From NCBI GenBank assembly GCA_016125075.1, contig WGMO01000019.1, positions 1-64,000 on the forward strand: a stretch of 64,000 bases of DNA, given 5' to 3'. Shown in pieces: positions 50,700-61,904 of the stretch (position 1 is its first letter; every line of letters begins with the position of its first letter). The DNA is from Terrimonas sp. Lineage in GTDB: Bacteria > Bacteroidota > Bacteroidia > Chitinophagales > Chitinophagaceae. The translations under genes were made by a program, and so were the position numbers. The notes under the pieces are model-generated. The model was not told the origin of the DNA and ran no database searches. It saw nothing but the letters and a program-made list of their open reading frames with translations.

Positions 50700-51239
50700 T
50701 TGAATCTGAAAACCAAATACAGCGAACAGGAGCTGGTGGCTTTGTTACAACAGCAAAGTGAACCTGCGTTTAATTATCTCTATGATAATTACTCCGGCGC
50801 CTTGTATGGTATCATTCATCAGATGATCATGGATTCGGAAACAGCCAATGATGTACTGCAGGAAGTATTTATCAATATCTGGAGAAAAATAAGTCTCTAT
50901 GATGCGGCAAAAGGAAGATTATACACCTGGATGCTGAATATTGCGAGGAATGCTGCCATCGACAAACTTCGTTCAAGGGGATTTCAGGAAAGCAGGAAAA
51001 ACCAGGCGATGCCTGAAAACGTAGATACCATCAGTGCCAGTGTGGGGCCAAAAATTGATGATGTAGGTTTAAAAAAAGTGTTAGTGCAATTAAAAGATGA
51101 ACACAGGACATTGGTGGACCTATCCTATTTCCAGGGGTTTACCCATGAGGAGATTGCAAAAATGATGGATATCCCCCTGGGTACTGTTAAAACCAGGATC
51201 CGGTCGGCTTTGACACAATTAAGGACTTTATTAAAATAA
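50700..51239 (+). CDS. ECF-type RNA polymerase sigma factor (third in window)
   Basis: This 179-residue protein shows region 2 (YDNYSGALYGIIHQMIMDSE, then VLQEVFINIWRKI, then YTWMLNIARNAAIDKLRS) and region 4 (LKDEHRTLVDLSYFQGFTHE, then IPLGTVKTRIRSALTQLRTL). It is paired with an RskA-like anti-sigma gene one base downstream, the usual SigK/RskA arrangement. The start is TTG; the first in-frame ATG lies in region 2 and would remove conserved sequence. Confidence 0.94.
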   Translation: MNLKTKYSEQELVALLQQQSEPAFNYLYDNYSGALYGIIHQMIMDSETANDVLQEVFINIWRKISLYDAAKGRLYTWMLNIARNAAIDKLRSRGFQESRKNQAMPENVDTISASVGPKIDDVGLKKVLVQLKDEHRTLVDLSYFQGFTHEEIAKMMDIPLGTVKTRIRSALTQLRTLLK

Positions 51240-51240
51240 A

Positions 51241-52029
51241 TTGAATATACAGGAATACATATCAAGTGGAATCATCGAAAGCTATGTGCTGGGGCTCGCT
51301 TCTGCAGAAGAAAAGAACGAGTTTGAGCAATTCTGCCGTCAATATCCCGAAATAAGGGAAGCAAGGGAAGCTTTTGAATTATTGCTTGAAAAACAGGCCA
51401 TGGAACAGGCTGTTCCTCCACCACCCGACCTGAAACAAAAGATTTGGGGCCAGATCAATTTCAATGCCCCGGTTGGCCAAACCGCTCCTATCGGGGAAAT
51501 ACCGCAAAGCCCTGTTGCCAGGATGGGATGGCTGCGATATGCTGTGGCGGCCTGCCTGGTCCTGCTGGCCGGCAGCCTATACTGGAATCTTTCTTTACAA
51601 AAACAAAACACTGCTATCAGGGAATCCTTATCATCGGTTCAAAATGACCTCGATGCTGCCAAAAACACGATTGCAGGACTTGAAGCAGATGCCAAAGTGA
51701 TCCAGGGTAATAATATCAAAATGGCGGCTTTAAAGGGCATGCCTGAATCGCCACAGTCTTTTGCTACGGTTTACTGGGATACCACATCCAAGGATGTTTA
51801 CCTGATGGTCAATAACCTTCCCAAACCTGCCTCCAACCAGCAATACCAGTTATGGGCCTTACTGGATGGCCAGCCGATTGACATGGGTTTACTGACCATC
51901 ACGGAAAAACCACTCCAGTTATATAAGATGAAAAATGCCCGGGCCGCACAGGCTTTTGCCATTACGCTGGAAAAGAAAGGGGGCAATCCAACACCTGAAG
52001 GTAAAATGTATGTGATGGGTAATCTTTAA
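51241..52029 (+). CDS. RskA-like anti-sigma factor
   Basis: This 262-residue protein has an N-terminal anti-sigma domain (IQEYISSGIIESYVLGLASA to about residue 60) and one membrane helix near residues 97-116 (LRYAVAACLVLLAGSLYW). A short coiled coil (LQKQNTAIRESLSSVQNDLD) follows, then an RskA C-terminal domain (FATVYWDTTSKDVYLMVNNL, then QQYQLWALLDGQPIDMG). It should hold the preceding sigma factor at the membrane until released by an envelope signal. The TTG start lies one base after the sigma stop. No ATG is available before the conserved N-terminus. Confidence 0.92.
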   Translation: MNIQEYISSGIIESYVLGLASAEEKNEFEQFCRQYPEIREAREAFELLLEKQAMEQAVPPPPDLKQKIWGQINFNAPVGQTAPIGEIPQSPVARMGWLRYAVAACLVLLAGSLYWNLSLQKQNTAIRESLSSVQNDLDAAKNTIAGLEADAKVIQGNNIKMAALKGMPESPQSFATVYWDTTSKDVYLMVNNLPKPASNQQYQLWALLDGQPIDMGLLTITEKPLQLYKMKNARAAQAFAITLEKKGGNPTPEGKMYVMGNL

Positions 52030-52125: not shown

Positions 52126-52154
52126 GGGGGCTCTCTTTTGGGAGCCCCTTTTTT
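52126..52154 (+). terminator. Terminator of the sigma/RskA operon
   Basis: GGGGCTC pairs with GAGCCCC around an 8-base loop, followed by six T residues. It lies about 95 bases past the anti-sigma stop and just before the VanZ-like gene. Confidence 0.88.
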
Positions 52155-52183: not shown

Positions 52184-52564
52184 TTGCAGCTATTAAAACG
52201 TTTTCTCCCCGCAATGCTATGGTTGATCATCCTTACTGTTCTGCATTGCCTGCCGGGTGATGAAATTCCAACTGGGGGCTTGTTCAACATTCCACAGCTG
52301 GACAAAGTGGTCCATTTTTGTTTATTCATGATCCTCGTTATCCTGAGTTGCCGGGTTATTGATCGCACAGCCATCAACCCGTCACGGTTAAAAAAGATCT
52401 ATCTGACCATTGCGATTTCGGGTTTGCTGTATGGGATTGCCATGGAATTTGTACAGTATTATTTTATTATCAACAGGACATTTGATATAGCCGATATGGC
52501 CGCAGATGCCGTTGGGAGTTACGGTGGTTTCCTGTTCGCCACGAAAAGGTATATAAAAAAATAG
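52184..52564 (+). CDS. VanZ-like membrane protein
   Basis: This 126-residue protein has four hydrophobic segments (LPAMLWLIILTVLHCLP, VVHFCLFMILVILSCRV, IYLTIAISGLLYGIAMEF and the C-terminal part). The VanZ family pattern is present: PQLDKVVHF near residue 37 and GIAMEFVQYYF, then FDIADMAADAVGSYGG. VanZ relatives are linked with glycopeptide tolerance in Gram-positive bacteria, but the biochemical role in this phylum is unknown. The TTG start at 52184 supplies the basic residues before the first helix; an ATG at 52214 is the alternative. It ends inside the U tract of the convergent candidate RNA. Confidence 0.85.
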   Translation: MQLLKRFLPAMLWLIILTVLHCLPGDEIPTGGLFNIPQLDKVVHFCLFMILVILSCRVIDRTAINPSRLKKIYLTIAISGLLYGIAMEFVQYYFIINRTFDIADMAADAVGSYGGFLFATKRYIKK

Positions 52565-52653
52565 ACCCCTGTGGAAACAGGGGTCGCAACCAAAACTAAC
52601 TGCTTATGAGAAAATTGACTGCTTTATTGAGAATTCGTTTTTTCTAATTATTA
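52555..52653 (-). ncRNA. Candidate small RNA with promoter box and intrinsic terminator
   Basis: On the minus strand an exact -7 box (TAAATTTG, at 52659-52666) is followed about 70 bases later by a perfect 9-bp hairpin (GACCCCTGT with its complement, 52564-52585, 4-base loop) and then TATTTTTTT. The hairpin has no T tail on the plus strand, so it is built for minus-strand termination, yet no minus-strand ORF of normal size lies between. The predicted RNA is about 98 bases. On the opposite strand a 13-codon frame (52606-52647, MRKLTALLRIRFF) can be read, which is an alternative explanation for conservation. Confidence 0.45.
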
Positions 52654-52666
52654 TAACGCAAATTTA

Positions 52667-52983
52667 CTGCCAATATTTTGATGTTTGCTGTTAAGGAAAG
52701 TTTAAAAGGCCATGCTAGAAAAATCCCCATGTATTATCCACATCTGTTTCTGTTAGAATTCCGCTAAAACGCTATTGATAACAACAAGAACTACAATCAT
52801 ATAACGGGAATAGGTCCTGAATGTTGCATCGTTTTTTCTTAATTTTTATCTAAAGAAATCATTTAAGTATGACAAAAAACTGACAATAGCCTGAAATACA
52901 ATAACAAAAAAGCTGCCAATTTGGTATTCCGGGTAAACCCCTGCCAATCGGGAGTTTATTCACATTTGAAAAGTATTGTGCAT
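52667..52983. other. AT-rich intergenic region
   Basis: I see no gene, tRNA or clear repeat in these roughly 317 bases. They lie upstream of the candidate minus-strand RNA and downstream of the DUF937-like gene terminator, and probably hold only the promoter of the RNA. Confidence 0.5.
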
Positions 52984-61503: not shown

Positions 61504-61904
61504 ATATCCCTCCGGGAGATGGTTATCCCGAATCATAAAGAGCCGATAAGACCGGAAACAGGAATGAAGGCCAAATTGGGTTTTGGATCCTTCCATTAAT
61601 TATATATCTTCCTTTGCAGGTTTTTATACACAATATATTGTAAATCAATTATTTTTATTGCGAACAAGTGTTTTTATTGACAATCAAATATTATTTATTT
61701 TAATATATATTACCGCTGGGCAACTATTATCAGGGTTAATACGTATAGTTAAGCAGCAATTCCTATAAATATTTTGTCAATTATTTCACATTTAAAGGTT
61801 GCTAAAACATTAACAATCTTTAAAAAAACCAGTTGAATCCATTTATTTTAGATTTTACTGGTGTTATTTTGTCTTTTATTAACATTAACTTAAACTAAGT
61901 ACAC
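61504..61904. other. AT-rich upstream region of the SusC-like gene
   Basis: These 401 bases are strongly AT-rich compared with the neighbouring genes and contain no gene I can support. An open frame of about 60 codons at 61583-61768 reads as random hydrophobic sequence and has no start signal. The stretch most likely holds the promoter and a long leader of the SusC-like gene. Confidence 0.5.

Follow-up and report, generated by a model that had tools for sequence, protein, structure and literature searches.

FopS, a family of paralogous sRNAs of Bacteroides thetaiotaomicron, has 14 copies in that species and 12 to 15 in others, and according to excerpts of its published description it acts on the start regions of susC-like mRNAs, with both targets and protein partner proven; one member, FopS-14, is 3′UTR-derived and FopS sequence was also found in a phage (PMC11697453). 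A precedent for sigma54-controlled sRNAs is given by the Qrr sRNA of Vibrionaceae, an excerpt on which describes sigma54-dependent transcription of Qrr1 (PMC10162802), and CrcZ/CrcY of Azotobacter and Pseudomonas are presented in part of a further article as paralogous sRNAs (PMC6292655). In a flavobacterium, passages of one study report sigma54-type −24/−12 motifs and give TAnnTTTG as the sigmaA box (PMC9723704).

No sRNA studies of Chitinophagaceae were among the matches listed in our literature searches. We analysed a locus in a stretch of 64,000 nucleotides of Terrimonas sp. DNA, hereafter the window, for which a sequence-only reading had proposed an undescribed small RNA on the minus strand beside a VanZ-like gene. 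Our comparisons support, by computation, a nearly invariant unpaired core of 26 nt (33 nt at the vanZ locus) that runs straight into an intrinsic terminator.

Results

Layout of the predicted sRNA locus

The features of the locus, in window coordinates, were as follows.

52184–52564, plus strand: VanZ-like gene (PF04892, E 2.9e-8), convergent, its 3′ end overlapping the terminator
52555–52561, minus strand: U tract T7, read from the sequence
52564–52585, minus strand: terminator stem-loop, 9 bp, loop UUCC, from the sequence, a terminator scan and covariation in 56 copies
52588–52613, minus strand: conserved 26-nt core UUUCUCAUAAGCAGUUAGUUUUGGUU, from invariant columns; the invariant block at the vanZ locus reaches 52620
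52555–52646, minus strand: predicted sRNA of ~92 nt, from promoter and terminator positions and a fold z of −2.85
52658–52672, minus strand: putative sigma54-type promoter TGGCAG-TAAAT-TTGC, containing TAAATTTG (52666–52659), from GG-N10-GC spacing and score
52690–52694, minus strand: TTAAC box upstream of the −24/−12 site, at a constant 35 nt ahead of the G in GC

Read along the minus strand from 52694 to 52555, the TTAAC box comes first and then TGGCAG-TAAAT-TTGC; an AT-rich leader and AAGCAGTCAAT lead to the core TTTCTCATAAGCAGTTAGTTTTGGTT, after which come the hairpin, TA, and T7. The hairpin at 52585–52564, GACCCCTGT-TTCC-ACAGGGGTC, had 9 pairs, 6 of them GC, and was thus the perfect GC-rich hairpin that the sequence-only reading had described; the GGAA-type loop given there holds as a plus-strand reading, the loop of the RNA strand being UUCC. 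The seven-base U tract (T7 at 52561–52555) occurred, as claimed, on the minus strand only, both by reading of the sequence and in the terminator scan, and the VanZ gene did end in it, with its stop at 52564: the final base falls within the stem, and the final codons overlap the U tract. Three minus-strand ORFs of at least 20 aa (24, 28, and 39 aa) overlapped 52540–52700 and none of them spanned the core, in agreement with the earlier remark that no normal ORF is present. A 6-kb scan listed 14 terminator-like sites where shuffles would give 7.6, and a single terminator-scan match therefore carries little weight; the window hairpin had the second-highest GC-pair count among the 14. The fold of 52550–52655 had a z of −2.85, with 1 of 200 shuffles equally good. 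From these positions we infer an RNA start about 12 nt past the GC of the promoter and a size of ~92 nt. Just upstream of the VanZ gene, at 50700–52029 on the plus strand, lay a gene for an ECF sigma factor and, after it, one for an RskA_C anti-sigma protein, a pair ended by a strong plus-strand terminator at 52126–52149.

Placed where the VanZ gene ends, the hairpin could be a mere shared terminator of that gene with no separate RNA, but the VanZ strand lacks the U tract, and the core was conserved at VanZ-free loci, at hsp20 3′ ends, and in phages. The missing U tract together with the conservation elsewhere ruled this explanation out, and we consider it extremely improbable; conservation of the core at loci without VanZ also contradicted the refuting case named in the sequence-only reading, that nothing would be conserved beyond a shared VanZ terminator. 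Rfam 15 gave no matches in the window and none above the gathering score in 20 loci with other copies. At the sRNA stretch itself the 9 matches had E values of 1.2 to 9.9; since every match was far below its gathering score, a known Rfam family was ruled out as the identity of the RNA, and the candidate keeps its designation as undescribed. The letters of the core motif were likewise not found in the literature searched by text.

Conservation of the core and covariation of the stem

The core of the RNA, UUUCUCAUAAGCAGUURGUUUUGGUU, is 26 nt long, unpaired, and directly 5′ of the terminator. Together with a varying GC hairpin and a U run it forms a module with 3 occurrences in the Terrimonas sp. 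genome (3.92 Mb, 32 contigs), in which three sites lay within 3 mismatches of the core, each adjoining a terminator-like hairpin. Among 59 genomes, comprising the Terrimonas genome and relatives, the core pattern was found at 56 places in 23 genomes, all of them among the 36 Chitinophagaceae genomes (23/36) and none among the 23 from other families of the order, and the reversed pattern gave no matches in the 59. A stem and U run followed at 56 of these 56 first-set places by an automatic test, and all 56 were also read. When the 56 copies were aligned, 14 columns were invariant, every one within the core, and the stem was paired in 97.0% of cells with 9 of 9 pairs changed on both sides; these are the compensatory changes that the sequence-only reading had named as support. 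The stem covariation score was 0.699, as opposed to 0.210 in shuffled alignments and at most 0.228 when the stem was slid. In 18 copies, which were chosen by hand and were mostly vanZ-adjacent, 33 consecutive bases were invariant.

With an exact 21-mer of the core, a stem and U run came next in 118 of the 120 genomic places among the matches listed (one of the two exceptions ends at the edge of its stretch) and in 18 of 20 viral places; control stretches 300 nt upstream of the same places gave 0 genomic and 0 viral cases. Judged by these sequence comparisons, the recurrence of core and hairpin across Chitinophagaceae is more than chance. The locus has both a conserved RNA body and an intrinsic terminator, as an sRNA gene should.

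Two further explanations of the core were rejected. A plus-strand short peptide (ATGAGAAAATTG..., 13 codons, by eye) failed as a general explanation because the copies diverge just past the core, and the remnant of a receptor-gene start was ruled out because the core adjoins a terminator at all 56 first-set places. The TAACTGA repeats of Beggiatoaceae resemble the core in a few letters only. Two tandem-looking pairs of matches, ~180–210 nt apart on one strand, were seen (G090:C1:1037221/1037435 and G123:C33:120019/120196).

Distribution among genomes and viruses

A covariance model built from the 56 first-set copies matched 152 of 195 Chitinophagaceae genomes at E ≤ 0.001; in 138 of the 195 the best match reached E ≤ 1e-10, and 14 had a weak match alone. 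At the same threshold of E ≤ 0.001, 81 of 101 Chitinophagaceae genera were matched, which, with the 33-base block above, supplies the conserved body that the sequence-only reading had named as support. Matched genomes held 1 to 14 matches each, weak ones counted. In a class-wide sample of 198 genomes the model matched two at E ≤ 1e-5, both Chitinophagaceae, and no others. The exact 21-mer occurred in at least 119 stretches of named genomes, and among the 80 titles listed for its matches 78 were Bacteroidota names, many of them Chitinophagaceae, and 2 were ‘Williamsia’; the genera named include Niabella, Niastella, Terrimonas, Flavihumibacter, Sediminibacterium, and Ferruginibacter. The ‘Williamsia’ titles place the core on two contigs (L206 and L232) of a MAG whose title, Williamsia sp., carries an actinobacterial genus name, and this MAG is probably mislabelled or contaminated. 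Viral sequences contained the 21-mer in 20 stretches on 19 contigs; a search of plasmids gave 2 matches, both irrelevant.

Genomic contexts of the copies

When copies identical in the core ±30 nt were counted once, 218 distinct copies remained, 200 genomic and 18 viral; neighbours were classed from BLAST clusters and simple ORF calling, so that the following counts are approximate. A convergent gene of the BLAST cluster of the window's VanZ gene stood beside 78 of the 218, and an hsp20-type gene lay upstream on the same strand of 25. Pfam assigned VanZ to 4 of 5 sampled members of the VanZ cluster (one below the cut-off, the fifth without a match) and HSP20 to 4 of 4 sampled hsp20-type genes and also at L005. 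A same-strand stop was found no more than 60 nt upstream of 41 of the 200 genomic copies and 14 of the 18 viral copies. Some viral copies were located in operons of head genes. On three viral contigs the copy was just upstream of a gene matching ‘major head and protease protein’, and on two of these a portal gene directly preceded it. More generally, on viral contigs L291–L310 the core and terminator were located at phage gene ends. In a cluster represented by L246, four copies lay 2–24 nt past the gene for a small basic protein of ~58 aa.

These contexts suggest another explanation, namely that core and hairpin form a 3′-end module bound by an RNA-binding protein (e.g. an RRM protein), which would protect or process 3′ ends or be titrated by them, in sRNA, hsp20, and phage transcripts alike. 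That the core always abuts the terminator is consistent with such a module, as are the 25 of 218 copies that follow hsp20-type stops and the 14 of 18 viral copies within 60 nt past a phage stop. However, 1 to 14 copies per genome, weak ones included, are few for a general 3′-end signal, and the vanZ-locus copies retain a putative promoter of their own. We regard the module as a real possibility, held with less than even confidence. The claim that the window contains a stand-alone sRNA gene stands as regards its conserved body and terminator, and needs qualifying in that this gene belongs to a set of several near-identical copies, among them mRNA 3′ ends and phage-borne ones.

The promoter region

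The exact −7 box of the sequence-only reading, TAAATTTG, was present at 52666–52659 on the minus strand, and it sits inside TGGCAG-TAAAT-TTGCG. We scored the region upstream of the copies for the sigma54-type arrangement GG-N10-GC. A score of at least 8 was obtained upstream of 19 of the 56 first-set copies, compared with 1.04 in shuffles. By class, with copies having less than 100 nt upstream left out, such scores were found for 44/75 vanZ-locus copies (0.85 expected), 21/79 other copies (0.75 expected), 4/16 other 3′UTR copies (0.20 expected), 0/25 hsp20-type copies (0.10 expected), and 1/18 viral copies (0.15 expected). With the search anchored on TTTGC alone, 44 of 49 vanZ-locus copies had GG at N10, as had 24 of 31 other copies, a set that may include vanZ-locus copies whose VanZ neighbour was missed; each of the other GG spacings from 6 to 16 was seen in 0 to 2 copies. 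Because copies at the same locus share ancestry and their counts are not independent, the figure for other loci, 24 of 31, tells more. Among the copies with TTTGC, a TTAAC box was found 35 nt upstream of the G in GC for 38/49 at the vanZ locus and 16/31 elsewhere. The exact motif TTAAC-N17-TGGCA-N5-TTTGC occurred 5 times in 35 genomes, always just upstream of a copy, the window's included. Allowing one mismatch added 44 matches in the same 35 genomes, at least 3 of which precede sRNA copies; of the resulting 49, a single genome contributed 9, and the reversed pattern gave 22.

A stand-alone sRNA could instead be transcribed from an ordinary Bacteroidota −7 box, TAnnTTTG, with the sigma54 likeness accidental. 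The window copy has an exact TAAATTTG, TAnnTTTG occurred in 19/75 vanZ-locus copies against 6.5 expected, and it matches the flavobacterial sigmaA box as given in the passages cited above (PMC9723704). Yet many copies read TGGCACTGGATTTGC or similar, without TA, and GG stood at N10 from TTTGC in the large majority of copies from either set. Moreover, in the 44 scored vanZ-locus promoters the T and A of TAnn were present in 25 and 24, as compared with 43 and 39 for the C and A of TGGCA, a comparison in which the score itself favours TGGCA. We consider transcription from the −7 box improbable. A better reading of the box places it within the putative sigma54-type promoter, and by sequence comparison the locus appears to have a promoter of its own.

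Of the 75 vanZ-locus copies, 31 had no good sigma54 score, and several low-scoring ones read TTAACA...TTTTGCGTC without GG. At the vanZ-locus copies L036, L221, L236, L247, and L270, TTAACA and GCGTC were kept and the sigma54-type GG was lost. The GG-less copies have perhaps switched or replaced their promoter type. RpoN was found in 59 of 59 genomes, including those without the sRNA, and its co-occurrence thus has no discriminating power. Taken together, the computations support a single module shared by stand-alone genes, of which many have a putative sigma54-type promoter, and by the 3′ ends of genes of hsp20 type and of phages.

Search for targets

In the complement of the core, AACCAAAAC precedes ATGAGAAA, an arrangement that resembles the 5′ leader and start of a gene for an exported protein. 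We infer a FopS-like antisense sRNA whose pairing sites would be start regions of the kind ACCAAAAC...AUGAGAAA. The evidence for such targets was weak. Among 380 gene starts, taken from the window and 20 stretches of 20 kb, the best duplex (−25.5 kcal/mol) involved the leader ACCAAAACTACCCGGCGTATGAGAAA of a 1107-aa protein whose N terminus resembles a signal peptide; this energy was reached by 4 of 200 controls that kept UCUCAU, and the site was kept in the sister species at −21.7 kcal/mol. The number of strong duplexes was not above shuffles in the 380 starts, where a coding-stretch control was equally null, or in 1121 gene starts, and upstream CCAAAA showed no link to ATGAGAAA starts (2/18 vs 39/1103, p 0.14). 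Target counts that do not exceed controls favour the 3′-end module described above, as does the presence of 5 RRM proteins in the Terrimonas genome.

The gapped pattern CCAAAACN{10,14}ATGAGAAA, whose spacing leaves out the sRNA copies themselves, gave 20 matches in the 59 genomes against 4 for its reverse. Fifteen of the matches were in the 23 core-bearing genomes, 3 in 13 other Chitinophagaceae, and 2 in 23 genomes of other families, and 12 of the 20 open an MRK-starting frame of at least 190 aa. The words AACCAA, ACCAAA, CCAAAA, and CAAAAC were enriched 2.3 to 3.6-fold in leaders, an enrichment that may be generic. Allowing one mismatch, a 13-mer was found at 5 places beyond the 3 copies, compared with 2 for the reversed pattern; one place was at the start of a gene that, by reading alone, looks like pcm. 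From a set of 30 receptor loci, 5 had no start found; 2 of the 25 scored beat all 100 shuffles, which we take as no more than a hint, several frames having been wrongly chosen short. A SusC/RagA-type receptor gene at window position 61904 on the plus strand runs past the window end; its start, AUGAGGAAAUUG, pairs moderately with the core, at −17.1 kcal/mol.

Conservation of the best target was assessed in 9 of 30 fetched loci, chosen post hoc and some of them paralogues. In genomes with the sRNA the duplexes were −25.5, −21.7, −24.4, −17.0, and −11.1 kcal/mol; in genomes without a strong sRNA match they were −10.6, −9.3, −9.9, and −11.3 kcal/mol.

Discussion

We propose, with about even confidence, that 52646–52555 on the minus strand is the vanZ-locus representative of a multicopy, undescribed sRNA family of Chitinophagaceae, which would act by antisense blocking of start regions. 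Separate signals, namely a sigma54 activator, heat shock, and phage expression, would all yield one identical short RNA, the core of which, the complement of AACCAAAACYAACUGCUUAUGAGAAA, would pair with the 5′ leader plus start codon in a selected set of mRNAs, probably encoding exported proteins. Such pairing would prevent translation, much as FopS does in Bacteroides, and one of the five RRM proteins encoded in the Terrimonas genome may serve as partner. Comparison shows the family and its hairpin and, at many loci, its promoter type; from these we would expect transcription from the predicted start site and release of the RNA from the mRNAs that carry it, with targets and a partner of the kind just outlined. 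Antisense repression at start codons is in our judgement the likeliest mechanism, though only a little ahead of the protein-binding 3′-end module.

Phages that carry the core at gene ends, e.g. between portal and head genes, might turn this host translational switch during infection, the RNA being fed by sigma54, by heat-shock 3′ ends, and by phages; this extension of the antisense proposal is speculative, and we think it rather unlikely. Recurrence of the module in one large family of mainly environmental bacteria and in some of its viruses points to an undescribed gene-control system, and the locus is likely an sRNA gene. A short, near-invariant core present in most sampled genera, with sigma54-type promoters as well as heat-shock-gene and phage versions, offers a concrete and testable entry point.

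Comparison with known systems

CrcZ/CrcY are under sigma54 control and sequester a protein by means of repeated A-rich motifs, whereas the Chitinophagaceae sRNA has one core per RNA; the comparison bears mainly on the protein-binding alternative. The Qrr sRNAs are multicopy in some vibrios and dependent on Hfq. As far as the excerpts on Qrr go, a sigma54-type promoter is what they have in common with the Chitinophagaceae sRNA, for which the −24/−12 arrangement GG-N10-GC was found in 44/49 and 24/31 copies with TTTGC; the phyla differ and no sequence relation is expected.

FopS gave no sequence match via Rfam 15, a release that may lack it, and in the class sample the Chitinophagaceae model stayed within its own family. 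In the described portions of the FopS work, FopS is nonetheless the nearest in design: both RNAs are multicopy in one bacterial family and have a single-stranded conserved stretch followed by a terminator, and both have 3′UTR-derived members and phage-borne copies. According to the same portions they differ in that the seed of FopS lies at the RNA 5′ end whereas the Chitinophagaceae core abuts the terminator, in that FopS has sigmaABfr promoters and the Chitinophagaceae sRNA putative sigma54-type ones, and in that targets and a protein partner are proven for FopS and predicted here. The Chitinophagaceae RNA would be a second multicopy ‘seed plus terminator’ RNA family in Bacteroidota beside FopS, and a possible case of phages borrowing such a family.
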